Shown here: piece by piece, positions 7,059 to 25,849 of the stretch
Layout: every line of letters begins with the position of its first letter
Numbering within the stretch: position 1 is the stretch's first letter
Source of the DNA: Saprospiraceae bacterium
GTDB taxonomy: Bacteria > Bacteroidota > Bacteroidia > Chitinophagales > Saprospiraceae
Direction of reading: 5' to 3'
NCBI GenBank assembly: GCA_028285085.1
Contig: JANQQI010000138.1
Span: 1-43,697 of the forward strand
DNA: 43,697 nucleotides
Notes under the pieces: model-generated
The model's input: the letters and a program-made list of their open reading frames with translations, nothing else
What the model was told of the DNA's origin: nothing
The model's database searches: none
Position numbers and translations under genes: made by a program

Positions 7059-7817
7059 ATGAAATCATTAAAGAACTGTTTTCTCTTAGGTATTTGCGCC
7101 ATGTTTGCTTTCATGTTGCCACAGCAGGCTTCTGCACAGTGGGTCAACAGTCCAAGTACGCGTTTGTATACGTATGATCAAGTAATCATTGATCGTACCA
7201 CCGCAAAGTACTCCTGGCTAGAACTCGATGTAAATGGAACTATTGGTACGGAAGGGCTTGATATGTACACGGAGTCTAGTACAAGTACGGGATGGACACA
7301 GCAAATCACCTGGAATAACCCATCAGGTCGTCGTCATATTTTGACAGATCACGGCGGGACTGATCGCTTGTTGTTCTACGTTGGTATCGGTGGTGGTGCC
7401 AAAAATGAAATGGAGATTCATGGGAAACTTGGTGTAGGTCGTGTAGGTACGATCAATATGCCAACAACCGTAGGTGGTATTAATATCAGTGCTTATAATC
7501 TATACGTTGAAGGTGGTATCCTAACCGAAGAACTACGTGTGCGTACTGATTGGGCGGACTACGTTTTTGCTGAAGATTACGAACTGAAATCTTTGGAAGA
7601 GGTAGAAGCACATATCGACGAAAACGGCTACCTGCACAATACTTTATCTGCTGCTGAAGTAGAAGCACAAGGTATTGAAGTTGGTGAAATGACAAAGAAT
7701 CAGCAAGAAAAAATCGAAGAGTTGTTCTTGCACATGATCGATATGAACAAGCGATTGAAACAATTGGAAGAAGAAAATGCAGCGCTAAAAGCGAAGGTTG
7801 CGGAACTGGAAAAGTAA
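7059..7817 (+). CDS. Secreted coiled-coil protein with S74-chaperone-like C-terminus
   Basis: A 252-residue exported protein. The N-terminus is a type I signal peptide, a hydrophobic core LLGICAMFAFMLPQQASAQ probably cut after SAQ. The middle is Gly/Thr-rich and beta-structured. From about residue 147 the text NLYVEGGILTEELRVRT, then WADYVFAEDYELKSLEEVE and HIDENGYL, is a pattern common in Bacteroidota surface and tail-fibre-like proteins. It is related to the intramolecular chaperone (peptidase S74) region without an obvious catalytic part. The last 35 residues are a heptad coiled coil (MNKRLKQLEEENAALKAKV), suggesting trimerisation. There is no T9SS sorting domain. It lies 49 bases before a secreted protease gene and may be cotranscribed. 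Confidence 0.85.
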   Translation: MKSLKNCFLLGICAMFAFMLPQQASAQWVNSPSTRLYTYDQVIIDRTTAKYSWLELDVNGTIGTEGLDMYTESSTSTGWTQQITWNNPSGRRHILTDHGGTDRLLFYVGIGGGAKNEMEIHGKLGVGRVGTINMPTTVGGINISAYNLYVEGGILTEELRVRTDWADYVFAEDYELKSLEEVEAHIDENGYLHNTLSAAEVEAQGIEVGEMTKNQQEKIEELFLHMIDMNKRLKQLEEENAALKAKVAELEK

Positions 7818-7866
7818 CATAGACTGGTTAGGCTTAATTCATTCAACATTTCAATTATTTCATATT

Positions 7867-9747
7867 ATGAAAATATCAAGAAACTTATCTATTGTTTTCT
7901 TGCTGTTAGCCGCTCCAGTTTTTCTTTTTGCTCAACGCCCTCTAATAGAGGAATTCTTACCAATCAATTATCCAATTAGCGAAGAGAATGTTAAATATCT
8001 GGATGTCTACCAAAAAGAAAACAGAGTTGCGAAACTGCAACTTGTAAAAATTAATACAGAGATTTTCAAAGATGAGCAGGTTGTTGTTAATCTTGCTCTT
8101 GAATCAGCGATTGCTACTCGAATTCAAGATCGCGTACGTAGCGATGAAGACTTCTCTTGGTTTGGTACATTAGAAGACGAATCGGGAATTTACTTTTCCG
8201 TTTTGGAAGATCAAGTAATGTCCAAGTTTAGAATCGGAGATTACGCTTATTCGATTGTACCTCTAGACGGAGATGTACACATGCTAATAGAGGTTAATGC
8301 TGATGCAAAACATCCTGAAGGCCATGTAGGGTGTATTCATGATGCTATCTCGGAGCAAAGCCAAAATCATCGCCCAAGCCAAGAGCATCATCATTCTGAA
8401 GATCGGCCAGAACCTTCATCTCAGGGTGGTGCTCGAACCGATACAGATTGCGTCTATCGAATTTCGATCTTATACACTGATGATGCCGCTGCTAACATAG
8501 TTAACCTAGCCTTGTTCTCTCAAACATTAGCGGATGAAGCTAATCTGGCTTATACCCTAAGTCAGATAGATCTTGTAGCTGAGGTAGCCCGGTCATTGGA
8601 AGTAAACCATGCCGAATCAGATGTATTAATCGCTTTTCCTGGGTTCGCAAACACGACTATTTCTACCGACGTTGTTCGATTCCGAAATAATAATGATGGC
8701 GTTCTGGACGAGATTCATGACATGCGTGGCCGTTATCAAACGGATGTACAAGTCCTGGTGCGTGAAAATATCATTGATTTTGGAAATGGCGCTGGTGTAT
8801 TTTTGGGTTCTGCTTTTGGTGTTGCTTTTGATGTGGACGCTGCTAATGCAGCAGATGCATTTGTGGCTGTACAACGGGCAAGTATCCCCCTGAATCGCTT
8901 CACCTTTACACATGAAATTGGTCACATTCAAGGAGCGAAACATGAGAATGATAACAACGCCCCTCTTTTTGCCCGAGGTTTTCTGTTTGCCAATGGAGCT
9001 GCGGGTCGTACTCTAATGGTGCGAGGTGCAGCGGGTGTTTGTGCTACTGCAAACGGCGATGCTTGTCGTATCGGACGTTTTTCAAATCCTAATGTTGTCG
9101 TTGGTGGTACCACAATTGGTGTTGCTAATAATTTTGATAATGCTCGCCGCCTCAATGAGACCGCCGATCGTACGCGAAATTATCGCATGACCAACGATGT
9201 TTTTACGATTGCTGCCGAGGATATTCCCAACGAAACGCTCTCTCATCATTTGGCAAATGACCGATTGACGACTGGGGGAAATACCGTCACTTACCAGTCA
9301 GGTAGCATCGCCACGATGCGGGCGGGCCAGGAAGTTTTACTCCAGAATGGCGCTTGGATACGAGATGGCTCCAGGTTTAGAGCATATATTGAAAATGATC
9401 CATGTGAAAATCCTGCACCACTTCCATTGAATCAACCTGATGAAGATTTGGTGGAACAGCGATCAGAAAATCCGGCTCAAGCAATGAATGATCAGCTAAT
9501 GATTCAACCGAATCCCGCTCGTGATTTTATTGTGATTGCGTATCGATTTGATACACCTCAGACTGCTACAACAGCAATTTTTGATGCTAATGGTCGGGTT
9601 GTGCAAATTATCGATAATGCAGTATTGAGAGATGCCGGAGAGTATCAAATAGAAGTGGATATCCAAAATTTACCTGCTGGATTCTACTACTGTCAATTAC
9701 AGACAGAGGAAACGAAGTTGACTAAAAAATTTATCGTGAATAAGTAA
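7867..9747 (+). CDS. Secreted metzincin zinc metalloprotease with 3-coathanger and T9SS domains
   Basis: A secreted endopeptidase of 626 residues. The start is the ATG at 7867, directly followed by a signal peptide (MKISRNLSIVFLLLAAPVFLF, cut near FAQ); the longer frame from 7798 would bury it. Residues about 25-190 look like a propeptide ending in a His/Ser/Glu-rich stretch. The catalytic domain has the metzincin zinc site HEIGHIQGAKH (H349, E350, H353, H359) and a probable Met-turn at M384 (RTLMVRG). This fits the reprolysin-like (M12B-type) group. About residues 445-520 resemble the 3-coathanger stack domain. The last 80 residues form a type A T9SS sorting domain (IQPNPARDFIVIAY to TKKFIVNK). 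Substrate unknown. Confidence 0.93.
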   Translation: MKISRNLSIVFLLLAAPVFLFAQRPLIEEFLPINYPISEENVKYLDVYQKENRVAKLQLVKINTEIFKDEQVVVNLALESAIATRIQDRVRSDEDFSWFGTLEDESGIYFSVLEDQVMSKFRIGDYAYSIVPLDGDVHMLIEVNADAKHPEGHVGCIHDAISEQSQNHRPSQEHHHSEDRPEPSSQGGARTDTDCVYRISILYTDDAAANIVNLALFSQTLADEANLAYTLSQIDLVAEVARSLEVNHAESDVLIAFPGFANTTISTDVVRFRNNNDGVLDEIHDMRGRYQTDVQVLVRENIIDFGNGAGVFLGSAFGVAFDVDAANAADAFVAVQRASIPLNRFTFTHEIGHIQGAKHENDNNAPLFARGFLFANGAAGRTLMVRGAAGVCATANGDACRIGRFSNPNVVVGGTTIGVANNFDNARRLNETADRTRNYRMTNDVFTIAAEDIPNETLSHHLANDRLTTGGNTVTYQSGSIATMRAGQEVLLQNGAWIRDGSRFRAYIENDPCENPAPLPLNQPDEDLVEQRSENPAQAMNDQLMIQPNPARDFIVIAYRFDTPQTATTAIFDANGRVVQIIDNAVLRDAGEYQIEVDIQNLPAGFYYCQLQTEETKLTKKFIVNK

Positions 9748-12089: not shown

Positions 12090-12395
12090 ACGGTTATTAA
12101 GTTTTGTATTTGGGTCAAAAAAGATGTCATTGAGACACGTTCTAAATTTACATTTTTTTTAATAAAAGTGAAGGAACAAGCCTATTTAGGTCTTCTAAGT
12201 ACTTAATCCGGCAGAGCCGTAAAAAGTTTAGAATTAAAAGAGGTAGAGAGTTGGCACTTTCTTAAGATAAATGCCCTTGGTTATCTCCGTAGGCAACATC
12301 ATAGCTGCGACCTCATGCCTTGAGGTCAGCGGTGCGGCAGCATTAAAGCCTGACTTTTACTAAATTAGCAGAATCGATAATCGTGCAAGTTGACT
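12090..12395. other. Divergent intergenic region with structured leader before the HTCS gene
   Basis: The right part, 12265-12341, has nested inverted repeats. AGATAA/TTATCT lies at 12265-12270 and 12281-12286. GACCTCA/TGAGGTC lies at 12309-12315 and 12321-12327, enclosed by GCTGC/GCAGC at 12304-12308 and 12337-12341. If transcribed with the HTCS gene this would fold into a stacked hairpin 55 bases before its start. No T-tract follows, so it is not a simple terminator. Confidence 0.5.
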
Positions 12396-15300
12396 ATGAC
12401 TCGTTCTCGGAAGTATCTTTCTGCGCTTTACTGCATACTAGTCTCCTTTGGCCTTTCTGCACAAATTCCCGCGGACCTACCCATCCGTACGCCCTCTTAC
12501 ACGGAAGATTTCCAGCGGTACAAGTCTTACCCTTCGATGTGTTTGGAAGATGTCTATTTTGGGAAAGACGGTGAGTTATGGTTGAAAACTTGTGGGGTGG
12601 GCAATCATTTTAACTTGCGGCTGTTCCAGTTCGATGGCTACGAATTCAGATCGCTACAGCATTTGTTTTCGGAACTTGACTTTACATTTGCCATCTACGG
12701 TCTAGTGGAAGGGCGTCAACTGGTAGGGGCTACATATGAACAAGCAACAGATAAGCATCAGCTATTTTTTCTTGATTTGTATACGGGCCGATTTCAGTTT
12801 CATGCCTTCCCTCAAAATGCGTATCCCAGTGCCGTTTACGTTAGTAAGACTGGCGAGGTATTTTATCTCCTCGAAAAAGACGATTGGTTCTACGCTTACA
12901 GATGGGAGAAAGGCGAAGCCATTTTAATCAATCAAATCCAATCAAAATACGAGCATACGGTTTTCAGTCCTAAGATGACGGATTATGGTCTGCCACTTTC
13001 TAATGTTTTATTATTCGATGGGAAAGTAATTTGGATACACAATGATATTTCGGCTTCATTTGTCGATCGCATTGAATTAGCGACAGGTGAGGTACAAAGG
13101 TTTAATGCGGCTGACTTTTTGGGGGAAACGAATCGGGAGCTTAAAACCCAGCAAGAGGAGGAGGCGTGGATTGAAATGAAGGTACTAGGTGAAAGGACAT
13201 TTTTAAAAGTATCTTTTGACAAACAAAACTATCAGATTCTTGAATTGGATTTGCCGAATCAGCAGTTTACGCTCATTGACGGCTTACCCTCTGATTTGCG
13301 GAATGTATATATCTATGAAGATAAGGTGGGGAACCTCATTTATGTGTTATTTAAAAAGGACAGAACTTATGCGGCAATTTTAGAGGATCATGATGGTAAC
13401 CGATTTGATTATTCTTCTTTTTTTGAATCATTATCATTGTCGAAACTGGGAGTCAGAGAAGTAAAAGGGGAAGATTTTAAAAAACAATTGTTGATTTGTA
13501 GCGACCAGGGGGTACAAATTCACCGGGTGAAATCAACGGATGCGATACAAACCTACGCATCGGGATTTGCGATTAGAGCTATGACAGAACTGCCTAATGG
13601 AGAGATTCATATTGCTACTCAGGGTAATCTTCGTCTGCGCCTGAATCTCGCTACAAAAACTATCAAACGTGTTGATCTTGGAAATTGCCAAATGCAGTAT
13701 CACAAGTTTATATCCGACGGAACTGGCCAATTCTGGGGTGCCCTTTTTAAAGATCTTGCGAAGTATGATCCGACCACTAATTCATGTGATGTCTATCCTA
13801 CCGATGCTAGCCAAATCAGAGTGTTTGATTTTCTTGACCAAGATAGGGTCATATTTATCGATTTTAATCAGGAAATCGGCATGAATGATCTCAATGATAG
13901 AACGACTACCCGATTTAAAGTAGACGGTGAAAATTATAAAGTCACTGGGTTTGTTCATGATTTGATGGTGGCAAAAAATGGCTTAGCGTGGGCCGTGACA
14001 ACTTCTGGATTATATAAAATAGATCTCGCCGCCAATCAAGTAGAAGTTATTGGAGGGGACGCCATTATTCCCGATCCTCGTTTTTTGTGTATCGAAGAAG
14101 ATGAGCAAGGGAAGTTGTGGCTGGGCACACCGAATAGTGGAATTATTATTTACGACCCCAGTGATCAAAGTGTACAACGGATCAATAGCGAAAATGGCTT
14201 GGCCAATAATACGGTAGTCACTATTACCACTGATGATGATGGGATGAAATGGATTGGTACCTACAACGGCATTTCTCTAGTCTCCTCGAAAGGGCAATTA
14301 ATTACCAATTTATACGAAGAAGATGGCGTAGCTCATCGAGAGAGTAATCGATACGCTAAGCTGAAAACAGCCGATGGGAAGATTGTCATTGGATCAATAT
14401 CCGGCTTGACAATAATTGATCCTGACCAGGTGCGGCAAGATTTTATTCAAAACAAGGCACTTGGTTTGTACCTGACGAAGTTGGAGTACTTTGATCCTTC
14501 CGCTCAGCAGGATACCGTGCAGCGTTTAGGCTTAAAGGCTTTGGAGCAGATCACCTTGCCAGCGGAACGACGTGATTTATCCCTTGGTTTTGCGATCTCT
14601 AATTACCTACGGCCCGCGGAGAATAAATATGCTTTTAAATTTGTGGAGGATGAGGACTGGACTGCGCTAGGGAATCAGCCCCATTTAAATCTCAAAAATA
14701 TCCCGGCGGGAAGACATCAATTACTGATTCGCGGTGGAGATGGTATTGGTAACTGGGCCCAAAGTGTACTTAAGGTCAATATCCGTGCACAGGAATATTT
14801 TTACAAGCAACTTTGGTTTTATGTCTTGCTCGTTGCTCTGGGGATTGGAGGAGCCTTGCTGTGGATTACTCGATTGCAAACGGCTGTTCGGAAGGCGACC
14901 CAAAAAATCCGGACGGATAAAGCCATCATTGAACAGCAAGCAGAAGAACTCAAAGCCTTAGATCAGGCCAAATCACAGTTTTTTACCAATATCTCTCATG
15001 AGTTCCGAACCCCACTCACGATCATCTCCGGCGTGGTGGATCAGATGAAAGCTAAGCCAGATATTTGGGCGGATAAAGGTATCGATACGATTAAACAGCA
15101 TAGCGAGAACTTGCTGCATTTGATTAATCAGATTTTGGATTTGAGAAAATTATCTTCCAACAAACTAGACCTCAATCTAGTGAAAGGAGATATTCTGGAA
15201 TACCTTAGATACATCACCAATTCCTACCGATCGTTTGCTGAAAACCAAGGACTTCAACTACATCTTATCTCAACTCAGTCGTCCATTATTATGGACTACG

Positions 15301-16514
15301 ATCCAGACAAGCTTTTGAGAATTATTTCCAATCTGCTTTCGAACGCCATTAAATACAACCGGGAAAATGGTAACATTTATTTCAATATTGATTGCGTCGC
15401 GCTTGATAACAAGGAATGGTTGAAATTACAAATTCAGGATACAGGCGTCGGTATCCCCGAGGAAAAGCTGGTTCATATTTTTGATCGCTTCTACCAAATC
15501 AATGAACCCGGAGAGAAAAAAGTGATCGGATCGGGTATTGGTTTGGCTCTGACTCACGAATTGGTGCGTCTGATGAAAGGAGAGATTGAGGTAAAAAGTG
15601 AGATTGGAGCAGGTACTACTTTTTTTATTAAAATTCCTATCACCCGAAACGCTGCGGAGATCGATACCCTAACCAGTGGGATTGCAGAGTCTGCCAAGGG
15701 ATTAACTATCAACCCCATAGCAGAGAAAACGTCGACCCAAATTGTATTTACCAATGAAAATGTGAATCGACAGTTGCCTACTTTGCTAATTGTGGAAGAT
15801 AACCTAGATATCATTCAGGTGCTAGTCGCTTGCCTGGAAATGGACTATCAACTGGAGGTCGCCCAAAATGGTGAAGAGGGGATCGAAAAAGCGGTTGAAG
15901 TTGTCCCCGATATCATTATCAGCGACGTAATGATGCCCATTAAAGATGGCTTTGAACTGTGTAATACGCTAAAGCAAGACGAGCGAACAAGCCATATACC
16001 TATCATTTTATTGACGGCAAAATCGGGAGACAGTGCCAGAATCAAAGGCCTTGAAAAAGGAGCAGATGCTTATCTCTCTAAACCATTCAATCCCGAGGAA
16101 CTCTTGGTGCGCTGTAAAAAACTTCTGGAGCTACGCCAAAAATTACAGGAACGTTATCGCTCTTTTGACGTTAATGCCGAGCAGGCAGCCACAACGGTAG
16201 AGGATGCCTTCATTCAAAAAGTGAGGCAAGCTGTCGAAGCGCATATCGAAGATGATTCCTACGGCATTCCTCACCTTTGTCGGACGATTGGTTTGAGTCG
16301 GGCACAGATGCATAATAAAATAAAAGCATTGACCGGCTTGGCAACTTCCGCTTTTATGCGCTCCGTGCGACTGAACAAAGCCAAACACCTGCTTCAATCC
16401 ACCACGCTCTCCGTTTCTGAGGTGGCCTGCAAAGTTGGATTTAAAAACCCTACCTACTTTTCTTCGGCTTATTCGAAAGAATTTGGTGAATCGCCGAGTA
16501 AGACGCGTAAATAA
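12396..16514 (+). CDS. Hybrid two-component system sensor/regulator (HTCS)
   Basis: A single protein that senses an extracellular ligand and binds DNA. From the ATG at 12396 (a TTG six bases earlier is less likely) it has 1372 residues. A signal peptide ends near FGLSAQ. Residues about 30-740 are beta-propeller (Reg_prop) repeats, such as GKLWLGTPNSGIIIYD and GMKWIGTYNGISLV. A Y_Y_Y domain follows at about 745-805, then one membrane helix (LWFYVLLVALGIGGALLWI). The cytoplasmic half has HisKA with H868 in SHEFRTPLTI, HATPase with LLSNAIKYN, DTGVGIPEEK and GSGIGLAL, a receiver with phospho-acceptor D1177 (ISDVMMPIKDG) and KGADAYLSKPF, and a C-terminal AraC-type HTH. No SusC/SusD genes lie nearby. 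The downstream operon is its natural candidate target. Confidence 0.96.
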   Translation: MTRSRKYLSALYCILVSFGLSAQIPADLPIRTPSYTEDFQRYKSYPSMCLEDVYFGKDGELWLKTCGVGNHFNLRLFQFDGYEFRSLQHLFSELDFTFAIYGLVEGRQLVGATYEQATDKHQLFFLDLYTGRFQFHAFPQNAYPSAVYVSKTGEVFYLLEKDDWFYAYRWEKGEAILINQIQSKYEHTVFSPKMTDYGLPLSNVLLFDGKVIWIHNDISASFVDRIELATGEVQRFNAADFLGETNRELKTQQEEEAWIEMKVLGERTFLKVSFDKQNYQILELDLPNQQFTLIDGLPSDLRNVYIYEDKVGNLIYVLFKKDRTYAAILEDHDGNRFDYSSFFESLSLSKLGVREVKGEDFKKQLLICSDQGVQIHRVKSTDAIQTYASGFAIRAMTELPNGEIHIATQGNLRLRLNLATKTIKRVDLGNCQMQYHKFISDGTGQFWGALFKDLAKYDPTTNSCDVYPTDASQIRVFDFLDQDRVIFIDFNQEIGMNDLNDRTTTRFKVDGENYKVTGFVHDLMVAKNGLAWAVTTSGLYKIDLAANQVEVIGGDAIIPDPRFLCIEEDEQGKLWLGTPNSGIIIYDPSDQSVQRINSENGLANNTVVTITTDDDGMKWIGTYNGISLVSSKGQLITNLYEEDGVAHRESNRYAKLKTADGKIVIGSISGLTIIDPDQVRQDFIQNKALGLYLTKLEYFDPSAQQDTVQRLGLKALEQITLPAERRDLSLGFAISNYLRPAENKYAFKFVEDEDWTALGNQPHLNLKNIPAGRHQLLIRGGDGIGNWAQSVLKVNIRAQEYFYKQLWFYVLLVALGIGGALLWITRLQTAVRKATQKIRTDKAIIEQQAEELKALDQAKSQFFTNISHEFRTPLTIISGVVDQMKAKPDIWADKGIDTIKQHSENLLHLINQILDLRKLSSNKLDLNLVKGDILEYLRYITNSYRSFAENQGLQLHLISTQSSIIMDYDPDKLLRIISNLLSNAIKYNRENGNIYFNIDCVALDNKEWLKLQIQDTGVGIPEEKLVHIFDRFYQINEPGEKKVIGSGIGLALTHELVRLMKGEIEVKSEIGAGTTFFIKIPITRNAAEIDTLTSGIAESAKGLTINPIAEKTSTQIVFTNENVNRQLPTLLIVEDNLDIIQVLVACLEMDYQLEVAQNGEEGIEKAVEVVPDIIISDVMMPIKDGFELCNTLKQDERTSHIPIILLTAKSGDSARIKGLEKGADAYLSKPFNPEELLVRCKKLLELRQKLQERYRSFDVNAEQAATTVEDAFIQKVRQAVEAHIEDDSYGIPHLCRTIGLSRAQMHNKIKALTGLATSAFMRSVRLNKAKHLLQSTTLSVSEVACKVGFKNPTYFSSAYSKEFGESPSKTRK

Positions 16515-16814
16515 TTGATTTTTAGTTTTTTATGTGGTGGCGTCTAATGCTAATTAGACAATAGTTAAAGTCTTTTCGCTAAGAATAAATCACGGTCTAA
16601 AGCTTTTGGAACATTAGCAAAAGCGCTTTTTTACGTTTCCCTTCATCTTTGTAGTATCACCCTAGAAAGCTTAATCAAATAGACTCTAAAAAGAGCACGA
16701 ATAGACCTCAGCTACTGATCTTTCAATCTTTTTAACCCATAAAGCTGCGAGTAGTGCGAAGGAGCGCACCCCCCTCCTCAACTCCTTTCATCGATCGCAA
16801 CATTAATGTACTAA
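16515..16814. other. Intergenic region between the HTCS gene and the four-gene operon
   Basis: This 300-base gap contains two hairpins: GTCTAAT/ATTAGAC with a GCTA loop at 16542-16559 just after the HTCS stop, and GTGCG/CGCAC with a six-base loop at 16754-16769, about 45 bases before the next start. Neither has a T-tract. I found no well-spaced TTTG/TAnnTTTG pair. It is the likely binding region of the HTCS regulator, which is inference. Confidence 0.45.
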
Positions 16815-18053
16815 ATGTCATTTTTGATGAAAAACAAGAAACTTAATGAACGCATGCTGATGTACTGTCAGCAAAGATTTGATCAAAGCCAGGACAATGG
16901 CTTGTCTCTGAAAATCGCAGTGATGGCTCCTTTGGCACTCTTAGCCAATGAAACGGCACTAGCCCAATGTAATACGGGGACGCTCAGCGATTCGGGCGGC
17001 TTTTATAATATCGACGTCGATAATGACGGTAACCCGGATTTCATCATTGATGATGGCTATGCCCCTAGATTGTGGTTTACCCTGGCCAATAATTCCTGCA
17101 GCGTTGCGGTTGATACCGGAAATGGTTGGAATGGGTATACTTCTTTGTTTCAATCTGCTGCGGCACCGATTAAATTAACAACGAGTAATTATTTACCAAT
17201 TCAGAATTTCGTTCCACGTACAGCATTAAATTACAATGGCAGTACACACGGTTATGGTGCCTTGAACACCCGAGGTGGTGTTTGGCCAAATACACCGATG
17301 TCAGGCTATGTAGGGGTGCGTTGTGATTATGATGGAGACGGTAATTACAATTACGGTTTTTACCATCTGGATTTTAATGCGGGCGGTAATGTTACGGTTG
17401 ACTTAACGAAATCTGGTATTGATGAAGTTGATGACAATATCGGTATCGTAGGCTACTGTGAAAGTATCGGAGGGGTTGGGCCATTGCCAGTCGAATTGGT
17501 GAAATTAGATGCGCGATACGATACGGATCAAGTTGTGATTAATTGGGAGACCGCGACAGAGATCAACAATATGGGCTTTCGGGTACAACGCAGTACCAAT
17601 GGTCGTGACTTTCATAATGTTGGTTGGGTAGATGGCTACGGCACCACTACAGAAGAGCAGAACTATTTGTTAGTAGATAAAGAGTTGCCAACGAGTTCTG
17701 TATTATACTATCGCTTGGTCCAAACTGATTTTGATGGTGCTACTGAGCTATCAGATGTTGTTTCCGTTAATATTTCTTCGGACGGCGATGCCGTTGTCAG
17801 TGAGTTCCAACCTAATTTGTTCCGCCCCGGCGTAAACACGAGCTTGATTATTGATTTACTAGAAAATAATAACGACGTTGATATTCGGGTTTTCAACGCG
17901 AATGGTCAGCTATTTAGAACCTTCAATTACCGCAAAGATAGCGGTAAGCACATTATGGCTTTTGAGACTTTTGATTTGCCTTCCGGGGTATTTTACGCCA
18001 GCGTAAATATTAACGGAGAGACCTTCCACCGAAAGTTTTTCATTCAGGAATAA
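16815..18053 (+). CDS. Secreted T9SS-dependent protein of unknown function
   Basis: First gene of the four-gene operon; 412 residues. The N-terminus is unusual: about 30 hydrophilic residues precede the signal core LSLKIAVMAPLALLANETALAQ, with cleavage probably after LAQ. Starts at M5 or M14 are also possible. Residues about 60-70 contain DVDNDGNPDFIIDDG, a calcium-loop-like motif of the kind seen in VCBS/FG-GAP repeats, and DYDGDGNYNYG recurs near residue 175. Residues about 222-320 (LPVELVKLDARYDTDQVVIN onward) form a fibronectin-like domain common in T9SS cargo. The C-terminal 75 residues are a sorting domain ending TFHRKFFIQE. Its stop is 12 bases from the next start. Confidence 0.88.
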   Translation: MSFLMKNKKLNERMLMYCQQRFDQSQDNGLSLKIAVMAPLALLANETALAQCNTGTLSDSGGFYNIDVDNDGNPDFIIDDGYAPRLWFTLANNSCSVAVDTGNGWNGYTSLFQSAAAPIKLTTSNYLPIQNFVPRTALNYNGSTHGYGALNTRGGVWPNTPMSGYVGVRCDYDGDGNYNYGFYHLDFNAGGNVTVDLTKSGIDEVDDNIGIVGYCESIGGVGPLPVELVKLDARYDTDQVVINWETATEINNMGFRVQRSTNGRDFHNVGWVDGYGTTTEEQNYLLVDKELPTSSVLYYRLVQTDFDGATELSDVVSVNISSDGDAVVSEFQPNLFRPGVNTSLIIDLLENNNDVDIRVFNANGQLFRTFNYRKDSGKHIMAFETFDLPSGVFYASVNINGETFHRKFFIQE

Positions 18054-18065
18054 GCCAAATTAATC

Positions 18066-21000
18066 ATGATTCGTACAGTTAGCATCCTAACCTTATTAGG
18101 AGTGGGCTTGCTTTGCCCGGAAATAGCACTCGGTCAGGCCGAAACCTTGTTCCGCCCGGTGCCGGCTAGCCATTCCGGTATACAGCACTGGAACACGGTG
18201 GTTGAAACGCCCGAACTCTTTCTGTGGCATTTCGACTATTTCTACACGGGAAGTGGTGTTGCCGTTGGAGATTTAAACAATGATGGATTGCCGGATTTAG
18301 TATTCGGTGGTAACCATGCGCCTAATTCAGTATACATCAATCAAGGCGACCTGAGGTTTAAATCCATTTCTGAAAGCTGCGGGATTCAAGCCAAAAAACG
18401 CTGGACGAATGGTGTCAATCTGATTGACATCAACCACGATGGTTGGCTGGATATTTATTGCAATAATGGTGGCCCCGGTTCGGATACTCTGGTTTTTGCC
18501 AATCAGCTATTTATCAATCAAGGTGTAGATGAGTCGGGACAAATTCATTTCATCGATCAAGCTGAGCAATATGGCCTGGCCGGCCATTCTCGCTCTGTTC
18601 ATGCCAACTTCTTTGATTTTGATAAGGATGGAGACCTTGATGTATTTGTTAACAATCACAGTCATCCAGAGATACTCCGTCCGAAGAGAAACAGGTTACT
18701 CAAAGATAGCATTGCAACAGTTGAACAGCCGGTGAGTAGCCGTCTTTATCGTAATGAAGGCAACGGATACTTCGTTGATATTACGGTCAAAGCCGGGCTG
18801 TTGCGTACCTATTTTGGTTTGGGAAGCACCGTTTCGGATTTTGATCAGGACGGCTGGCTCGATTTGTACGTTAGTAATGATTACGATATCCCGGATTACT
18901 TCTGGCGGAATAATGGAGATGGCACTTTTAGCGAAGTGATTAAAAAGCGGATGGGGCATGTCTCCTGGTTTGGGATGGGCTGTGATGCGGCGGATTTGAA
19001 TAACGATGGTCTGGAAGATATTCTGGTTGCGGATATGACGCCTTCGGACCACGTCCGCAATAAGACGCTCATGGCTCCGATGCATCCGGCCCGTATTCAC
19101 CGCATGGTGAACGAGAAAAAATATATCCCTCAGTATATGTTTAATACTTTACAAGTGAACATGGGGGGTGGGTACTTTTCTGAAGCGGCTTTGATGTGTG
19201 GCTTTGCGCAGACGGACTGGACCTGGTCTGTTTTAATGGCCGATTTTGATTTGGATGGTTATAAAGATGTGTTTTTTAGCACCGGCTTTTTGAAAGACAT
19301 CAGAGATAATGATTGGCGTCAATCCATTTCCAAGATGGTGAAAAAGAAAGATGGAAAGGTCACCGCCGAAGATATTTTTAACTGGCAGCAACAAACGCAT
19401 TCGGAACCAACACCCAACCGTATTTATCAGAATTTGGGGGAGTTGAAATTCAAAGCGCGAACCCAGGACTGGGGGCTTGGACAAGCTAGTTTTACTAACG
19501 GTGCTGCTTACGCTGACCTGGATCAGGATGGCGATCTGGATTTAATCCTCAATCACCTCAATGACGTTGCAGAGGTTTACGAAAACCATGCCCGGGACAA
19601 ATCTACGGGCGCTAATTATATTCGCTTTGCGCTACTTGATCAGGAGGGGGGGGCGACAACACTCAATGCGAAGGTCAACATCTTTTATCAAGATCAACAA
19701 CAAGTTATAGAAAACAAGTGGGTGCGGGGCTACGAATCACAAATGGAGCCCGTGGTTCATTTTGGCTTAGGTGACGTAACCCAGATTGACCGTGTAGAAG
19801 TTAACTGGCCCGATGGAACGGTCAGTACAATTCAAGGCCCCGAGATTAATACCACCCATCAAATTGAAAAAGAGAAATCAGGACGAGGTGTCAAAACTAA
19901 CTCAGACCAACCAACACCTATATTTAAATCGTTTTTGTCGGGCGTGCCCTACCACCATTTTGAAAATCAATTTTATGATTTTGGGAAAGAGCGACTCTTG
20001 CCACATCGGCAATCTCGTCAAGGTCCCGCTCTAGCTACCGGCGACCTCAATGGTGATGGCTTGGATGATTTTTATGTCGGCGGGGCTCGCGCTCAGATGG
20101 GCGCCGTTTATTTGCAAGGAGAGTACAATCAATTTTACGAATTAGAGCAAGCAGCCTTTGTTGGCTCGGCCGGTTACGAGGATCAAGGGGCGAGCCTGGT
20201 CGATATCGATGGAGACGGTGATTTGGATTTGTACGTTGCTTCCGGTGGGGATGGTTCTTATCCCGAAAACACCCATTGGATGCAAGATCGACTGTATTGG
20301 AACGATGGGCAAGGGAACTTGACCGAAGACAAAACCGCTCTGCCACCGATGTACTCTTGTACCCAAAGCATCAGCTTTTGCGATTGGGACGGGGATGGTG
20401 ATCTGGATATTTTTGTCGGTGGACGAAATATTCCTAATCGTTATCCATTTGCACCACCTTCCTATTTGTTGGAAAATAAAGGCGGCCAATTTGTTCAGGT
20501 TGATTCGACTTTAATCCCTGATCTGAGCAAATTAGGTTTAGTGACCGCCGCCGAGTGGTCCGATATCGATCAAAACGGCTGGCCTGATTTGCTGGTCGTG
20601 GGCGAGTGGATGCCGCTCACCATTTTTTTCAATGACGGAGGTGAGTTCACCAAAATGCAATTGCCGGACTCGGAAGGTTGGTGGTATAGCTTGGTGAAAG
20701 CGGACTTTGATGGCGATGGCGATGAAGATTTCATCGCGGGCAACCTAGGACTCAACAATAAATTCCATCCCAGCCCGGAAAAACCTTTACACATTTACAC
20801 GAATGATTTTGACGAAAATGGCTCTTACGATATCGTATTGAGTAAGTACTATCAAGGGCAAAAAGTGCCGGTCAGAGGGCGACAGTGTTCCGCTGAGCAA
20901 ATGCCTAATCTGCGCGCTAAATTTCCCAGCTATCGCGCTTTCGCGGAAGCCAGCTTGGAAGAAATCTATTCCCCGGATAAACTTGACCAGGCATTACATC

Positions 21001-21386
21001 TCGAAGCCCGAACTATGGCCCATCTGTATCTGGAAAATGATAATGGCCAACTCACCATGCGGCCTTTACCACGTATGGCCCAAATAGCCCCCATCAATGC
21101 GATGGTGTTGGCGGATGTAGATGGTGATGGCCGCGAAGATGTTATCGCTGCCGGGAATAATTTGAATACCGAAGTCGAAACACCCCGCTACGATGCGGGC
21201 AAAGGTATGGTACTGCTCAATCGCCCGGAGGGCTTTGAAGTCCGTTACCACTTGCATGAAACGGGCTTGCTGTTGCGCAGAGATTTACGCCAACTCGCTA
21301 AGGTGAAACTCACCGATGGTTGGGGCATAATTGGAGCCAACAACAACGGGCTTTTGCAATTTTACAAACACAATTTGATGCATTAA
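18066..21386 (+). CDS. Exported VCBS/FG-GAP repeat protein with ASPIC/UnbV domain (CRTAC1-like)
   Basis: An 1106-residue exported protein, probably a calcium-bound beta-propeller scaffold or adhesin. A signal peptide (ILTLLGVGLLCPEIALG) is cut near GQA. I count 14 DxDxDGxxD-type loops, seven before and seven after residue 600; examples are GDLNNDGLPDLVFGG, FDKDGDLDVFVNN and VDIDGDGDLDLYVAS. Between the two blocks, about residues 515-605, lies an ASPIC/UnbV domain recognised from KWVRGYESQMEPVVHFGLG and VEVNWPDGTVSTIQG. This order resembles the CRTAC1-type proteins frequent in Bacteroidota. There is no T9SS sorting domain and no clear lipobox. It is followed after only two bases by the next gene, so it is firmly in an operon with the two cytoplasmic proteins downstream. 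Confidence 0.92.
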   Translation: MIRTVSILTLLGVGLLCPEIALGQAETLFRPVPASHSGIQHWNTVVETPELFLWHFDYFYTGSGVAVGDLNNDGLPDLVFGGNHAPNSVYINQGDLRFKSISESCGIQAKKRWTNGVNLIDINHDGWLDIYCNNGGPGSDTLVFANQLFINQGVDESGQIHFIDQAEQYGLAGHSRSVHANFFDFDKDGDLDVFVNNHSHPEILRPKRNRLLKDSIATVEQPVSSRLYRNEGNGYFVDITVKAGLLRTYFGLGSTVSDFDQDGWLDLYVSNDYDIPDYFWRNNGDGTFSEVIKKRMGHVSWFGMGCDAADLNNDGLEDILVADMTPSDHVRNKTLMAPMHPARIHRMVNEKKYIPQYMFNTLQVNMGGGYFSEAALMCGFAQTDWTWSVLMADFDLDGYKDVFFSTGFLKDIRDNDWRQSISKMVKKKDGKVTAEDIFNWQQQTHSEPTPNRIYQNLGELKFKARTQDWGLGQASFTNGAAYADLDQDGDLDLILNHLNDVAEVYENHARDKSTGANYIRFALLDQEGGATTLNAKVNIFYQDQQQVIENKWVRGYESQMEPVVHFGLGDVTQIDRVEVNWPDGTVSTIQGPEINTTHQIEKEKSGRGVKTNSDQPTPIFKSFLSGVPYHHFENQFYDFGKERLLPHRQSRQGPALATGDLNGDGLDDFYVGGARAQMGAVYLQGEYNQFYELEQAAFVGSAGYEDQGASLVDIDGDGDLDLYVASGGDGSYPENTHWMQDRLYWNDGQGNLTEDKTALPPMYSCTQSISFCDWDGDGDLDIFVGGRNIPNRYPFAPPSYLLENKGGQFVQVDSTLIPDLSKLGLVTAAEWSDIDQNGWPDLLVVGEWMPLTIFFNDGGEFTKMQLPDSEGWWYSLVKADFDGDGDEDFIAGNLGLNNKFHPSPEKPLHIYTNDFDENGSYDIVLSKYYQGQKVPVRGRQCSAEQMPNLRAKFPSYRAFAEASLEEIYSPDKLDQALHLEARTMAHLYLENDNGQLTMRPLPRMAQIAPINAMVLADVDGDGREDVIAAGNNLNTEVETPRYDAGKGMVLLNRPEGFEVRYHLHETGLLLRRDLRQLAKVKLTDGWGIIGANNNGLLQFYKHNLMH

Positions 21387-21388
21387 TC

Positions 21389-21592
21389 ATGGAAGAAAAG
21401 AAGAACATCCATATTTCTGAGCTCGTCTTGCGGACGCCCGATGGACAGCCTTATGATATTCCCGTAAGAGGAAGCTTGGGGCTCTTAGCATTGGGGGATA
21501 TCGGGGTAATGGCTTGGAGGAATAAAATCCAGCAATTGAAAAACGAGAAAATCCAGGCCGTACTGGACAAAAGAAAAAATAGCGAGAAATGA
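21389..21592 (+). CDS. Small conserved-looking protein of unknown function (67 aa)
   Basis: I do not recognise the family. The ATG at 21389 lies two bases after the stop of the VCBS gene, and the stop overlaps the next ATG (ATGA at 21589-21592), so translation of the three genes is probably coupled. The product begins MEEKKNIHISELVLRTPDGQ, continues with YDIPVRGSLGLLALGDIGVM, and ends in a charged helix (RNKIQQLKNEKIQAVLDKRK). It has no signal peptide and only a weakly hydrophobic centre, so it is probably cytoplasmic. Its position suggests a partner or adaptor of the large enzyme that follows, but this is inference. The longer frame from 21320 only extends it into the previous gene. Confidence 0.82.
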   Translation: MEEKKNIHISELVLRTPDGQPYDIPVRGSLGLLALGDIGVMAWRNKIQQLKNEKIQAVLDKRKNSEK

Positions 21593-24150
21593 ATCCACAA
21601 CCAAAAAAGCAAAAAGTCATTCTCCTGGGGTGGGATGCCGCTGACTGGAAGATTATTAATCCTTTGATGGATCAAGGCTTGATGCCCAATTTAAAAAAAC
21701 TGGTAGAAGGCGGAAGTATCGGTAAACTTAAGACGCTTGATCCTGCTTTCTCTCCGATGATTTGGACCTCAATGGCGACGGGAAAGCGACCGTATAAACA
21801 CGGTGTACTGGGATTCCAGGAAGTTCGCCCAAATCGCGACGGTATTCAGCCTATCATGGGGACTTCTCGGAAGGTGAAGGCCATCTGGAATATTCTGGGA
21901 GACAAAGGCTATAAAACGCACGTTGTGGGCTGGTGGCCGAGCCATCCGGCAGAACCGATCAATGGGATTTGTATTTCGGACATGTACCAAAAATCCAATA
22001 TGGAAGCGTTTCCTAAGGATTGGAAAATGTCAGATGCTTGTGTCTATCCCAGAGAGATGGCAGCTCACTTTAAGCAGTTGCGGGTGCATCCCCGGGAGCT
22101 CAACGAGCAGCATCTCTTACCCTTCGTACCGGAGTTAGGTAAGATCAACCAAAAACGCGGTGGAAATATCTACGGTCTGGCCCAGACCCTTAGTCATGCG
22201 GCTAGCCTGCATTCGGCCTTTACAAATATTCTGCGCACTCAGGAATGGGATTTTGCGGCCTTATATTTGGACGCTATCGATCATTTTTGTCACGGCTTTA
22301 TGAAATATCATCCGCCGCATCGACCCAATATTTCGAAGGCGGATTATGATCTTTATCACCGGGTCGTGACGGGGGCTTATCAGTTTCATGACATGATGCT
22401 GCGGCGCATCATGGACTTTGTGGACGAGCATACGACCATCTTGCTGGTCTCAGATCACGGATTTCAGCCGGATCATCTTCGCCCCAAAATTCTGCCGAAT
22501 GAGCCAGCCAGTCCGGCTTTGGAGCACAGCCCCTACGGTATTATTGCCGCCCAAGGGCCCGGCATTAAAAAAGACAGCTTGCTATACGGTGCCAGCGTAC
22601 TCGATCTCACGCCAACGATCTTGAATATCTTTGGCTTACCGACTGGCTTGGATATGGACGGTAAAATCCTTAATAATATCTTCGAAAAACCAGTGGATAT
22701 TCCGCCGATCGAAACTTGGGAAAATACGGAAGGTTTCCATCGTACGGATGAGCAGGTTGGAGAAGATGAGATGAATATCATGCTCAAACAATTGGAGGAC
22801 TTAGGCTATATTGAAAAAACGGATAGTGCAAATGTCGAGAAGTCAATTCGCAGGGTAGAACGAGAATTGGATTACAACTTGGCTTGCTCTTACATTGATG
22901 GCCGCCAACTGTTCGAAGCGATTGAAGTATTAGAAGGTTTACAAGAAAAATACCCCAACGATCGCCGCTTTTTATACAAACTCGCCACCTGTTACCAATC
23001 GGTGAATGATCTGAAAAAATGTAGAACGAGTGTAGATGCCTTACGCGCTATGGATATTTATAATTCAGGAACTTTAGATGTACTCGAAGGGTCTTTACTA
23101 TTGGGTGAAAAAAAGCCCAATGAAGCCATGGCGATGTTTAAACGTGCGGAAGAAAATGTTGATCCGAATACATCGAAAATATACTTCATGTTGGCGCGTT
23201 GCCATTTTATGGTCTCTCGTTTTGAGAATGCACTTCGTCTTTTAGAAAAAGAAAAACAAATCAACCCGGATGAGCCGATGGTCTATCAATTGATGGCCAA
23301 GTGTTATACTAAACAGCAAGAATATGCCCAGGCTGCCGAGCACGCTTTAGAAGCGATTGCGCTGGATTTTCAAAATCCCGTTTCCCATTTTGTGCTCGGG
23401 TTTAATTTATTCCATTTAGGCCGCTACGAGGAAGCCACTACCGCTCTGGAAAATGTATTGAAATTGGCCCCGGATTACAACGATGCCCGTAAGTTGTTGA
23501 TGACCATTTACCAAACGCATCTGAATAAACCGGACCAAGCTATAGCGTTACGAAAGGCCTTTGAGCAAAAAATCGAAGGCACCATTTATATCGTTTCGGG
23601 GATGCCTCGTTCCGGGACTTCTATGATGATGCAAATGCTCCATAAAGGTGGCTTGGATGTTTTTACGGATCGAAAAAGGGAGGCCGACGAAAATAATTCC
23701 AAAGGCTATTTCGAGCATGAATTAGTGAAATCTTTGCCGCGTAATAAATCCTGGTTATCCGATGCAAATCAAAAAGCCGTAAAAATCATCGCTAATTTAT
23801 TACCGCATCTTCCGGGACGATTTAAGTACAAAATTATTTTTATGGAACGTAGCGTCCCGGAGCTATTGCAATCACAAACGCGAATGCTGCAGCGTTTAGG
23901 TAAACGCACCGGAGATGAGGAGACCTATCCACTCAGCCTCGCAGATTCTTTTCAAAAAAGTATTGACCGCGCGCTGCAATGGATGACTCATAATCCCAAT
24001 GTCGAATACATCCGCATTAACTATCCCGACGTCATCGAAAATCCTTTCGAACAGGCGCTGCATATCAACGCCTTTTTAGGCAATATTCTCAAGCCGGAAT
24101 TAATGGCGACTGCAGTGGATGGTCAATTGTATCGAGAGAAGAGTCGGTAA
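21589..24150 (+). CDS. Alkaline-phosphatase-superfamily / TPR / sulfotransferase fusion protein
   Basis: An 853-residue cytoplasmic-looking protein with three parts. Residues about 8-380 are a type I phosphodiesterase/nucleotide-pyrophosphatase-like domain: metal ligand D16 (GWDAAD), a Ser at the nucleophile position (S55 in PAFSPMIWT), TGKRPYKHGV, then D228/D231/H232/H235 in LDAIDHFCHG and D289-H290 in SDHG. Residues about 430-660 are tetratricopeptide repeats. Residues 665-853 are a sulfotransferase with the PAPS phosphate loop SGMPRSGTSMMMQML and a C-terminal part typical of the family. No signal peptide is visible. All metal ligands expected for the first domain seem present, so it may be active. 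Presumably one end handles the same polymer as the other, with the repeats binding it or partners. Substrates are not determinable here. Confidence 0.92.
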   Translation: MNPQPKKQKVILLGWDAADWKIINPLMDQGLMPNLKKLVEGGSIGKLKTLDPAFSPMIWTSMATGKRPYKHGVLGFQEVRPNRDGIQPIMGTSRKVKAIWNILGDKGYKTHVVGWWPSHPAEPINGICISDMYQKSNMEAFPKDWKMSDACVYPREMAAHFKQLRVHPRELNEQHLLPFVPELGKINQKRGGNIYGLAQTLSHAASLHSAFTNILRTQEWDFAALYLDAIDHFCHGFMKYHPPHRPNISKADYDLYHRVVTGAYQFHDMMLRRIMDFVDEHTTILLVSDHGFQPDHLRPKILPNEPASPALEHSPYGIIAAQGPGIKKDSLLYGASVLDLTPTILNIFGLPTGLDMDGKILNNIFEKPVDIPPIETWENTEGFHRTDEQVGEDEMNIMLKQLEDLGYIEKTDSANVEKSIRRVERELDYNLACSYIDGRQLFEAIEVLEGLQEKYPNDRRFLYKLATCYQSVNDLKKCRTSVDALRAMDIYNSGTLDVLEGSLLLGEKKPNEAMAMFKRAEENVDPNTSKIYFMLARCHFMVSRFENALRLLEKEKQINPDEPMVYQLMAKCYTKQQEYAQAAEHALEAIALDFQNPVSHFVLGFNLFHLGRYEEATTALENVLKLAPDYNDARKLLMTIYQTHLNKPDQAIALRKAFEQKIEGTIYIVSGMPRSGTSMMMQMLHKGGLDVFTDRKREADENNSKGYFEHELVKSLPRNKSWLSDANQKAVKIIANLLPHLPGRFKYKIIFMERSVPELLQSQTRMLQRLGKRTGDEETYPLSLADSFQKSIDRALQWMTHNPNVEYIRINYPDVIENPFEQALHINAFLGNILKPELMATAVDGQLYREKSR

Positions 24151-25390: not shown

Positions 25391-25849
25391 TTACTCTTTC
25401 TCTTTCTGCTCGTCTTCTTTGTGAAGCTGCACCTTAATCGCAACTGGGCCTTTTGGCCCCGAACCTATTTCAAAAACAACTTTGTCGTTTTCTTTTATGG
25501 GATCAAGTAAATTTTCTTCGTGTACAAAGTAATCGGTCTTTGTACCTGCTTCTTGAATAAAGCCAAATCTTTTTTCCGGGTTGAAGAATTTTACATGTCC
25601 CTTTTTTAGGAATTTATCTTCATCGGAAGCAACGCTACGGGGCGTACTGATATCGATGTCCTCAGCATTTATCTCTTCTCGCTTGGATGGGTCTGGCGGT
25701 GTTGGCGTCAGATTGCCATCAGCGTCCACATACATAAACTCTTCTGACTTTACCCCGTCAAGCTTTTTCTGCTTTTTCTTTTCCGCCTTATCTTGTTTTC
25801 TCTTTCTTCTCTTCTTCTCACGCTCTTTTTTATTATAGCTATCTGCCAT
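25391..25849 (-). CDS. Cold-shock-domain protein with charged N-terminal extension
   Basis: A 152-residue nucleic-acid-binding protein. Residues about 85-142 form a cold shock domain: GHVKFFNPEKRFGFIQ contains the RNP1-like KRFGFI, DYFVHEENL contains the RNP2-like FVH, and it ends GPKGPVAIKV. The usual KGFGFI is changed to KRFGFI. The first 30 residues are almost entirely Lys/Arg/Glu (KKEREKKRRKRKQDKAEKKK), followed by a Pro/Asp-rich linker of about 50 residues. It probably binds RNA or single-stranded DNA as a chaperone; the basic tail could add non-specific RNA binding. It has a good Bacteroidota promoter 20 bases upstream and a very short leader. Confidence 0.9.
   Translation of the reverse strand: MADSYNKKEREKKRRKRKQDKAEKKKQKKLDGVKSEEFMYVDADGNLTPTPPDPSKREEINAEDIDISTPRSVASDEDKFLKKGHVKFFNPEKRFGFIQEAGTKTDYFVHEENLLDPIKENDKVVFEIGSGPKGPVAIKVQLHKEDEQKEKE

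Follow-up and report, generated by a model that had tools for sequence, protein, structure and literature searches.

Bacterial sorting enzymes and their exported targets are described by Haft and Varghese as standing in a many-to-one relation, the target gene adjoining that of the enzyme when there is a single target (PMC3237569, in the sections available). In Xanthomonas, the sulfotransferase RaxST is linked to RaxX, a small protein sulfated on tyrosine (PMC6637879, PMC4216712; partial texts), and the accessible part of PMC6637879 thereby offers a precedent for bacterial sulfation of an exported small protein. Here we describe a gene set in Saprospiraceae bacterium (assembly GCA_028285085.1). 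The stretch analysed, referred to as the window, is the whole of contig C28 (JANQQI010000138.1; 43,697 bases) of a genome of 7.47 Mb in 140 contigs (G000; G and L numbers are working labels for the genomes and loci compared). It encodes a fusion of a phosphoesterase, a TPR superhelix and a sulfotransferase (AP-TPR-ST), a 67-residue partner protein (P67) and a member of a family of exported proteins, and this set is conserved, in part in two phyla.

AP-TPR-ST was found in 28 of 119 genomes of the window's order; 30 had matches at E≤1e-10, and two of these were set aside, G044 with a 140-residue phosphoesterase match and G076 with the sulfotransferase part only. When a P67 profile built from 28 sequences (alignment A1) was searched across the same 119 genomes, 27 gave matches at E≤5e-13, all of which hold AP-TPR-ST. 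At the thresholds used, one genome has the fusion only and none has P67 only (Fisher p ~7e-26, relatedness uncorrected); two further genomes lacking the fusion match the P67 profile weakly (E 0.004-0.009). In G110, the sole fusion-bearing genome without P67, the contig starts within the first fusion copy. The best P67 match and AP-TPR-ST lie on different contigs in four draft genomes (G013, G041, G077 and G500, the last a metagenome-assembled genome (MAG) labelled Owenweeksia), so that their co-occurrence is not explained by close linkage alone. Gene neighbours were tallied in 39 AP-TPR-ST loci, including the window and two loci from Verrucomicrobiota, 'near' being defined as within four genes; because the contigs are short at some loci, and many of the loci contributed sequences to the profiles, this tally is a description and not a test. 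P67 lies at most 900 bases from AP-TPR-ST in 27 of the 39 loci; in a further one, L068, just a VCBS gene lies between the two. Linked pairs have short stop-to-start distances, the genes overlapping by 1 to 23 bases at seven loci (starts as set by the ORF caller). The co-occurrence supports the proposal, made in a sequence-only reading of the window, that the 67-residue gene belongs with the fusion.

The fusion protein of the window matches Phosphodiest (PF01663, 98.6 bits), TPR models and Sulfotransfer_3 (PF13469, 31.6 bits; cut-off 27), and falls just below the cut-off for PF00685 (21.1 bits; cut-off 22). It starts with MNPQPKKQKVILLGWD and shows no signal peptide by eye, and with both active-site sets kept it is probably the cytoplasmic bifunctional enzyme that the sequence-only reading had envisaged. 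An AlphaFold2 model (mean predicted local distance difference test (pLDDT) 87.8) gave Foldseek matches to phosphodiesterases resembling nucleotide pyrophosphatase/phosphodiesterase (NPP), among them Xac NPP (7mw8/2gsn), to sulfatases, to OGT and to designed TPRs. Its phosphoesterase domain has the NPP-like fold of the alkaline phosphatase superfamily and a complete two-metal site with a Ser/Thr nucleophile; residue roles were assigned by eye against NPP motifs and are presumed. Assignment as a sulfotransferase that uses 3'-phosphoadenosine 5'-phosphosulfate (PAPS) draws on the Pfam profile and on motif residues, the window protein having both the 5' loop and the 3' Arg/Ser pair that we take to bind this cofactor. 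All seven residues of the phosphoesterase (AP) site are kept in 31 of 38 aligned homologues, the window protein included; residue 228 is altered in two (E, N). In five the AP site is gone and the PAPS loop is retained (L066:1371-3917, L068:6441-8966, L070:6157-11270, L074 and L075). R674, G676, T677, S678 and E709 are jointly intact in 37 of the 38 homologues and G676 alone in every one, as are K732 and R754; S762 is present in 36. At L066, L068 and L070 the copy without AP site adjoins a tandem copy in which this site is intact. One member of the L070 pair has the AP site and no PAPS loop and its neighbour the reverse, as confirmed on unaligned sequences, which suggests that both activities matter and that the copies may work together. 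Both enzyme domains thus appear to be under selection. APS (adenosine 5'-phosphosulfate) kinase, the PAPS-making enzyme, is present in all 13 enzyme-positive genomes tested and also in 11 of 14 controls, and its presence is therefore permissive evidence only. Among 395 genomes searched across the phylum Bacteroidota, with two candidates scored per genome listed, AP-TPR-ST was found in two, both of the window's family; the enzyme is likely to be rare outside the window's order.

For P67, no Pfam or NCBIfam family was found at E≤0.01, while some other members match PEP-CTERM-type models in both collections, and one of nine scanned singly (from L053) passes the curated PEP-CTERM cut-off (23.7 versus 20.7 bits). 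P67 shows no signal peptide by eye and its motif is mostly trailed by a longer charged stretch, so that it does not have the make-up of a PEP-CTERM target, namely a signal peptide plus a C-terminal PEP motif, membrane helix and basic cluster. The core has a mean hydropathy of 1.16 and polar residues inside it in 26 of 28 members, and is therefore unlike a normal membrane helix; a role as plain membrane anchor was abandoned for this polarity. An exosortase match (PF09721, E≤1e-3) is absent from 16 of the 27 P67 genomes, the window's genome included, which makes processing of P67 in the manner of a PEP-CTERM protein improbable in the window's genome; its candidacy as an exosortase substrate in this genome was dropped. 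A reading of P67 as a RaxX-like sulfated peptide was set aside because alignment A1 contains no conserved tyrosine. The structure prediction for P67 was of low confidence (pLDDT 69) and was not used.

Proteins of the exported family are secreted and share a D-x-DxDG-DF stretch as well as a YGW/YGF motif. The 412-residue protein of the window is, by profile comparison, a divergent member and the single one detected in its genome: it matches a family profile built without it and without its relative in L054 at E=3.4e-8 (database size 5000), the next-best of 39 window open reading frames (ORFs) reaching E=2.3, and it is marginal with a stricter six-sequence profile (E=0.0025 to 0.035). Its positional homologue and nearest relative, L054|10, likewise lies upstream of P67 and AP-TPR-ST. 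The 412-residue protein carries a curated type A sorting domain of the type IX secretion system (T9SS; TIGR04183, 27.5 bits, cut-off 23), as T9SS cargo does; PF18962 remains below its cut-off (20.5 versus 27). Several Bacteroidota relatives share the T9SS tail. Elsewhere the same domain is followed by a PEP-CTERM end, an IPTL segment or no recognised tail. Beside AP-TPR-ST, the proteins at L046:8767-9729 and L052:8384-9532 have a mid-protein IPTL-type segment and then further hydrophobic stretches; the L046 protein scores above the cut-off for IPTL-CTERM and below it for 'midcut-by-XrtH'.

A gene of this family lies near the enzyme in 28 of the 39 loci, which bears out the earlier suggestion that the exported T9SS protein belongs with the fusion. 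Within the order, 46 of the 119 genomes have matches at E≤0.001 and 21 at E<1e-40, of which 20 hold AP-TPR-ST. The one genome without it, G114, has a completeness of 85%, and the enzyme is common in its family (f3). Three genomes (G042, G055 and G066) have 24, 23 and 19 exported-family matches to one detected AP-TPR-ST each, a pattern like that described for sorting enzymes (PMC3237569); the copies are often dispersed, though some are neighbours. In G000, G031 and G074, which have the enzyme but just one match, this match sits close beside the enzyme.

Most exported proteins of enzyme-positive genomes carry, ahead of the signal-peptide core, the motif K..K[KL]xxY[STCA]xxA, whose tyrosine column is at least 90% conserved in alignment A3. 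The analysis of this tag kept proteins whose core match begins near the core start (78 of 81 enzyme-positive, 23 of 28 enzyme-negative), and the held-out set left out duplicates, training sequences and five proteins reported apart. Against the tag profile, the 47 held-out proteins from enzyme-bearing genomes gave 37 scores of at least 10 bits and 41 of at least 5, compared with none and one, respectively, among 21 proteins from genomes without the enzyme; ten of the latter 21 have a lipobox-like stretch. All three G114 proteins tested score as tag positives. A separate tag search (A4) was positive in 10 of 12 enzyme-positive genomes and, marginally, in 1 of 12 enzyme-negative ones. A regular expression for the tag (loose form 63/77 versus 1/21, strict form 40/77 versus 0/21) missed copies with a visible tyrosine and was replaced by the held-out profile.

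In Verrucomicrobiota, AP-TPR-ST was detected in 14 of 288 genomes at E≤1e-50. An exported-family protein is encoded within four genes in 14 of 18 regions (L189, L191-L197, L200-L205), by weak matches in three of them (L197, L204 and L205); L191 is the same locus as L043, a member of the exported-family profile. In two loci, L189:4403-7033 and L199:5792-10812, the phosphoesterase-TPR and sulfotransferase parts lie in separate ORFs; the split in L189 may instead be a stop within one gene. Most verrucomicrobial exported-family proteins end in a PEP-CTERM-like tail. A P67 profile was trained on 22 sequences, which came from the window's order and from three MAGs with the labels Saprospiraceae or Cytophagales. 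It gave 38.6 and 36.7 bits for two such tails of one locus (AVPEPASLGLLAVGATGLLLWRKRR and one nearly identical to it). Of 21 verrucomicrobial exported-family entries, 13 reached at least 10 bits; 19 of the entries belong to the 18 regions and the other two are L044 and L089, the latter not beside the enzyme, and one entry is truncated ahead of its tail. Only one of 26 unrelated PEP-CTERM tails, taken from four of these verrucomicrobial genomes (G518, G631, G498 and G506) and drawn from 30 loci of a PEP-CTERM search, reached 10 bits (13.4 bits; Mann-Whitney p=6e-4, relatedness uncorrected). The matches suggest that a docking-like motif lies in cis in Verrucomicrobiota and on a separate protein in Bacteroidota; by this profile similarity, P67 looks like a tail of the verrucomicrobial type set free. 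A regular expression for the tail motif (12/21 versus 0/26) was written after the tails had been viewed and is not used as evidence.

Positions of the features in the window are collected in the following table. The ORF positions of all five genes were verified, and the four-gene run described in the sequence-only reading, with the hybrid two-component sensor (HTCS) gene upstream, was confirmed: the T9SS and VCBS/UnbV genes are 12 bases apart, the VCBS/UnbV and P67 genes 2 bases, and the P67 and AP-TPR-ST genes overlap by 4 (ATGA).

Features of the AP-TPR-ST locus and its upstream neighbour (positions in bases of the window)
Feature	Position	Strand	Remarks
HTCS (hybrid two-component sensor)	12396..16514	+	ATG at 12396; judged a neighbour, outside the module
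Exported T9SS-tailed protein, 412 residues; divergent member (by profile) of the AP-TPR-ST-linked exported family	16815..18053	+	
N-terminal region: conserved Tyr (residue 17, ERMLMYC), insert, signal-peptide core	16815..16970	+	alignment only
Exported VCBS/FG-GAP and UnbV_ASPIC protein, 1106 residues	18066..21386	+	occasional neighbour, non-core
P67, 67-residue partner protein of an unannotated family	21389..21592	+	
P67 core motif GSLGLLALGDIGVMAW (G28-W43), PEP-CTERM-tail-like	21470..21517	+	16 residues in 28/28 aligned members; G36 and W43 invariant
AP-TPR-ST: phosphoesterase, TPR superhelix and sulfotransferase fusion, 853 residues, probably cytoplasmic	21589..24150	+	
AP (Phosphodiest/NPP-like) domain; putative ligands/nucleophile D16, S55, D228, H232, D289, H290, H313	21610..22758	+	
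TPR superhelix, about residues 416-660	22834..23568	+	Pfam, AlphaFold2 model, Foldseek
Sulfotransferase domain: putative 5'-PAPS loop PRSGTS (R674, G676, T677, S678), 3' motif R754...S762, K732, E709	23569..24147	+	

The HTCS has Reg_prop, HisKA, HATPase_c, Response_reg and HTH_18 domains, with Y_Y_Y below the cut-off; an in-frame TTG at 12390 opens the same frame as its ATG, and 300 bases separate the gene from the first gene of the run. A relative occurs near AP-TPR-ST in one of the 39 loci, the window itself, and the HTCS was accordingly dropped as regulator or member of the module. The 1106-residue protein, with its FG-GAP repeats and UnbV_ASPIC domain, has a relative near the enzyme in three loci, and there are 18 UnbV matches in the window's genome; it was dropped as a core member on both counts. 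Of the synteny of the VCBS/UnbV, P67 and AP-TPR-ST genes that the sequence-only reading had proposed to check, the pairing of the last two recurs and the VCBS part hardly does. Three clustered VCBS/UnbV genes at L088:5445-18755 (contig C125 of the window's genome) encode proteins 36-39% identical to that of the window. In agreement with the sequence-only reading, neither SusC nor SusD was found among 17 window proteins scanned, the remaining ORFs not being scanned, and the SusC/SusD pair of an HTCS-controlled polysaccharide utilization locus is thus missing from these 17. A scan of the window for promoter and terminator consensus sequences gave signals no better than shuffles, and an RNA-fold scan was uninformative. 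A defence system was considered and rejected, as PADLOC matches were merely generic, to kinase, receiver and TPR regions. Other window genes encode a T9SS protein with laminin-G/ConA-like and PNGase F C-terminal-like domains (35827-39237), a reprolysin-like metallopeptidase with a T9SS tail (7798-9747) and, on the minus strand, a cold-shock domain protein with a long Lys-rich N-terminal extension (25391-25849).

From the computed co-occurrence, synteny in two phyla, co-variation of the motif, similarity of tails and conservation of catalytic residues we infer, tentatively and with somewhat less than even confidence, that P67 joins AP-TPR-ST in a cytoplasmic complex whose dedicated task is to modify proteins of the exported surface-protein family, with a docking tail acting in cis or in trans. 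The exported proteins would be recognised by the N-terminal motif beside the signal peptide and, as a second element, by a docking motif of PEP-CTERM-like type, P-x-x-GSLGLLALGxxGLxxWR. Verrucomicrobial exported proteins would carry this docking motif in cis at their C-terminus; in Bacteroidota, where this C-terminus is often a T9SS signal, P67 would provide it in trans. The TPR superhelix would most likely hold the docking motif or the substrate, and the sulfotransferase domain would move sulfate from PAPS onto exported-family proteins in the cytoplasm. RaxX is sulfated in the cytoplasm before its secretion. The NPP-like domain would hydrolyse a phosphoester, perhaps that of the inhibitory product 3'-phosphoadenosine 5'-phosphate (PAP), or remove a phosphate or sulfate mark from the same substrate. 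It is rather doubtful whether the locus represents a new class of protein-modification and sorting systems in which a cytoplasmic enzyme marks a many-membered exported family through the N-terminal motif next to the signal peptide, with a docking tail on the substrate or, after gene fission, on a 67-residue trans adaptor.

Several observations weigh against a protein-modifying complex of this kind. The exported-family, tag and P67 profiles (A3 for the first) were all built from loci found through AP-TPR-ST, so that stronger matches in enzyme-positive genomes, the A4 result and the locus tallies are partly expected; the held-out proteins, though absent from the tag profile, are relatives of its training set. 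No exported-family gene lies within four genes in 11 of the 39 loci, some of them short contigs, and L040, L041, L051 and L063 lack one despite at least 5.6 kb on either side; the same holds for 4 of the 18 verrucomicrobial regions (L190, L198, L199 and L206). Two genomes with enzyme and P67, G022 and G026, gave no exported-family match in the genome search, a local scan near the G022 locus yielding a weak one (E=1.5e-4). In 19 genomes lacking AP-TPR-ST there are weaker matches to the exported family (best E 5e-6 to 1e-21), which indicates that the enzyme is not required for the exported domain as such. The tag profile gave 20.3 bits for L043, 5.7 for L054, 0.3 for L044, -1.0 for L089 and -2.5 for the window protein, which it missed; the window and L054 copies are atypical in having an insert after the tyrosine. 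In the A4 search neither G000 nor G031 had a tag match. Five G072 paralogues (L139) are without the motif and, together with L047, are exceptions in the held-out set. L089 has no tyrosine at the motif position, and the L044 protein, encoded beside AP-TPR-ST, has phenylalanine there, for which reason sulfation of the conserved N-terminal tyrosine itself is considered a possibility only. The sulfotransferase domain matched solved sulfotransferases weakly in sequence (E 0.06 and 0.16), and P67 itself was not found in two verrucomicrobial genomes searched, save for a match to a PEP tail.

The likeness of P67 to PEP-CTERM tails could be convergence in a short Gly/Leu/Ala-rich helix, P67 then being a small structural subunit of AP-TPR-ST. 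The shortness of the motif, just 16 residues, speaks for this, as do the eight of 21 exported-family entries that fail to reach 10 bits against the P67 profile (one truncated before the tail) and the many P67 genomes, the window's among them, that have no exosortase match. Moreover, the commonest Pfam match among P67 members is FAM165 (7 of 28, best E 8.5e-4) and not PEP-CTERM (2 of 28), a result that also counts against a docking role. Convergence explains less well why two tails of one locus score so high when ordinary PEP-CTERM tails from four of the same genomes score far lower, or why the L053 member exceeds the curated PEP-CTERM cut-off; we regard it as somewhat unlikely. A different substrate is conceivable as well: the complex might sulfate or dephosphorylate a small-molecule, lipid or glycan precursor of a surface anchor that carries the exported proteins. 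T9SS and PEP-CTERM proteins are joined to a surface glycolipid or polymer in known systems, and many small molecules are among the substrates of Phosphodiest-family and Sulfotransfer_3 domains. Yet the features that co-vary are the exported N-terminus and a tail-like peptide, needless for a pure carrier enzyme, and besides the exported family and P67 no neighbour family occurs in more than four of the loci compared (rarer families were not annotated). A carrier substrate is accordingly judged unlikely.

Still less probable, in our estimate, is that P67 and AP-TPR-ST act as a chaperone or quality-control device in export, holding the signal-peptide and tail regions while catalysis is regulatory, for instance in sensing PAP. 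The N-terminal motif does abut the signal peptide, TPRs bind peptides, the polar P67 core is not that of a normal membrane helix, and five AP-TPR-ST copies do lose the AP site. Nevertheless, both active sites are conserved, and their partition between the two L070 copies is hard to explain without catalysis. The sequence-only reading had proposed an HTCS-controlled operon that modifies or senses a sulfated or phosphorylated surface polymer, with the VCBS and T9SS proteins as scaffold. The genes are indeed adjacent and co-directional in the window's genome, and exported proteins and a probably cytoplasmic enzyme remain part of the picture. The HTCS and VCBS links, however, recur in hardly any other locus, a gap of 300 bases follows the HTCS gene, and the SusC/SusD pair was missing from the proteins scanned. 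We consider such an operon very improbable; the polymer idea finds less support than a protein-directed role, which is favoured because exported proteins with a shared N-terminal motif co-vary with the enzyme.

If a protein-modifying complex of P67 and AP-TPR-ST is borne out, bacteria of the Bacteroidota and Verrucomicrobiota would modify whole families of surface proteins by PAPS chemistry before export, and a C-terminal sorting tail would exist as a separate adaptor protein in a lineage that exports through the T9SS. Three protein families without roles would gain testable ones, and bacterial protein sulfation could be tested directly in a system outside plant pathogens. Each part has a known fold. 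Their combination, like the P67 family, the tag and the cis/trans tail, seems not to have been reported in the open literature (most subscription journals and bioRxiv lie outside it), and no described system with these genes was found in open-access literature, in line with the sequence-only reading.

Among the closest known systems are exosortase/PEP-CTERM and rhombosortase/GlyGly-CTERM, in which one enzyme serves many dispersed exported targets and is adjacent to the target when this is single, and in which a short motif, a hydrophobic stretch and a basic cluster recur and one family may bear different tails (PMC3237569, in the parts available). The many-to-one pairing suggested here is that of the strongest exported-family matches with AP-TPR-ST, measured with a profile from enzyme-linked loci and with enzyme-negative homologues that are mostly tag-less. 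Unlike exosortase, AP-TPR-ST is a soluble-looking phosphoesterase-TPR-sulfotransferase and not a membrane protease, and in Bacteroidota a small protein of its own bears the tail-like motif, in the window's case in a genome with no exosortase match. The window's HTCS has the domains usual at HTCS-regulated SusC/SusD glycan loci, which differ in their SusC/SusD pair, absent among the proteins scanned here, and in that the HTCS link to these genes is not conserved. T9SS cargo is resembled by the 412-residue protein and several Bacteroidota relatives, and differs in that the same exported domain elsewhere carries other tails or none recognised; we know of no AP-TPR-ST among T9SS parts. The AP domain shares with NPP of the alkaline phosphatase superfamily the fold and the pattern of metal ligands and Ser/Thr nucleophile, and departs from it in being fused to TPR and sulfotransferase domains, with no signal peptide seen by eye. 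RaxST/RaxX differs in that the 60-residue RaxX is itself the substrate, whereas P67 has no conserved tyrosine; the candidate substrates here are many and larger, and the sulfotransferase is fused to a phosphoesterase and a TPR domain.

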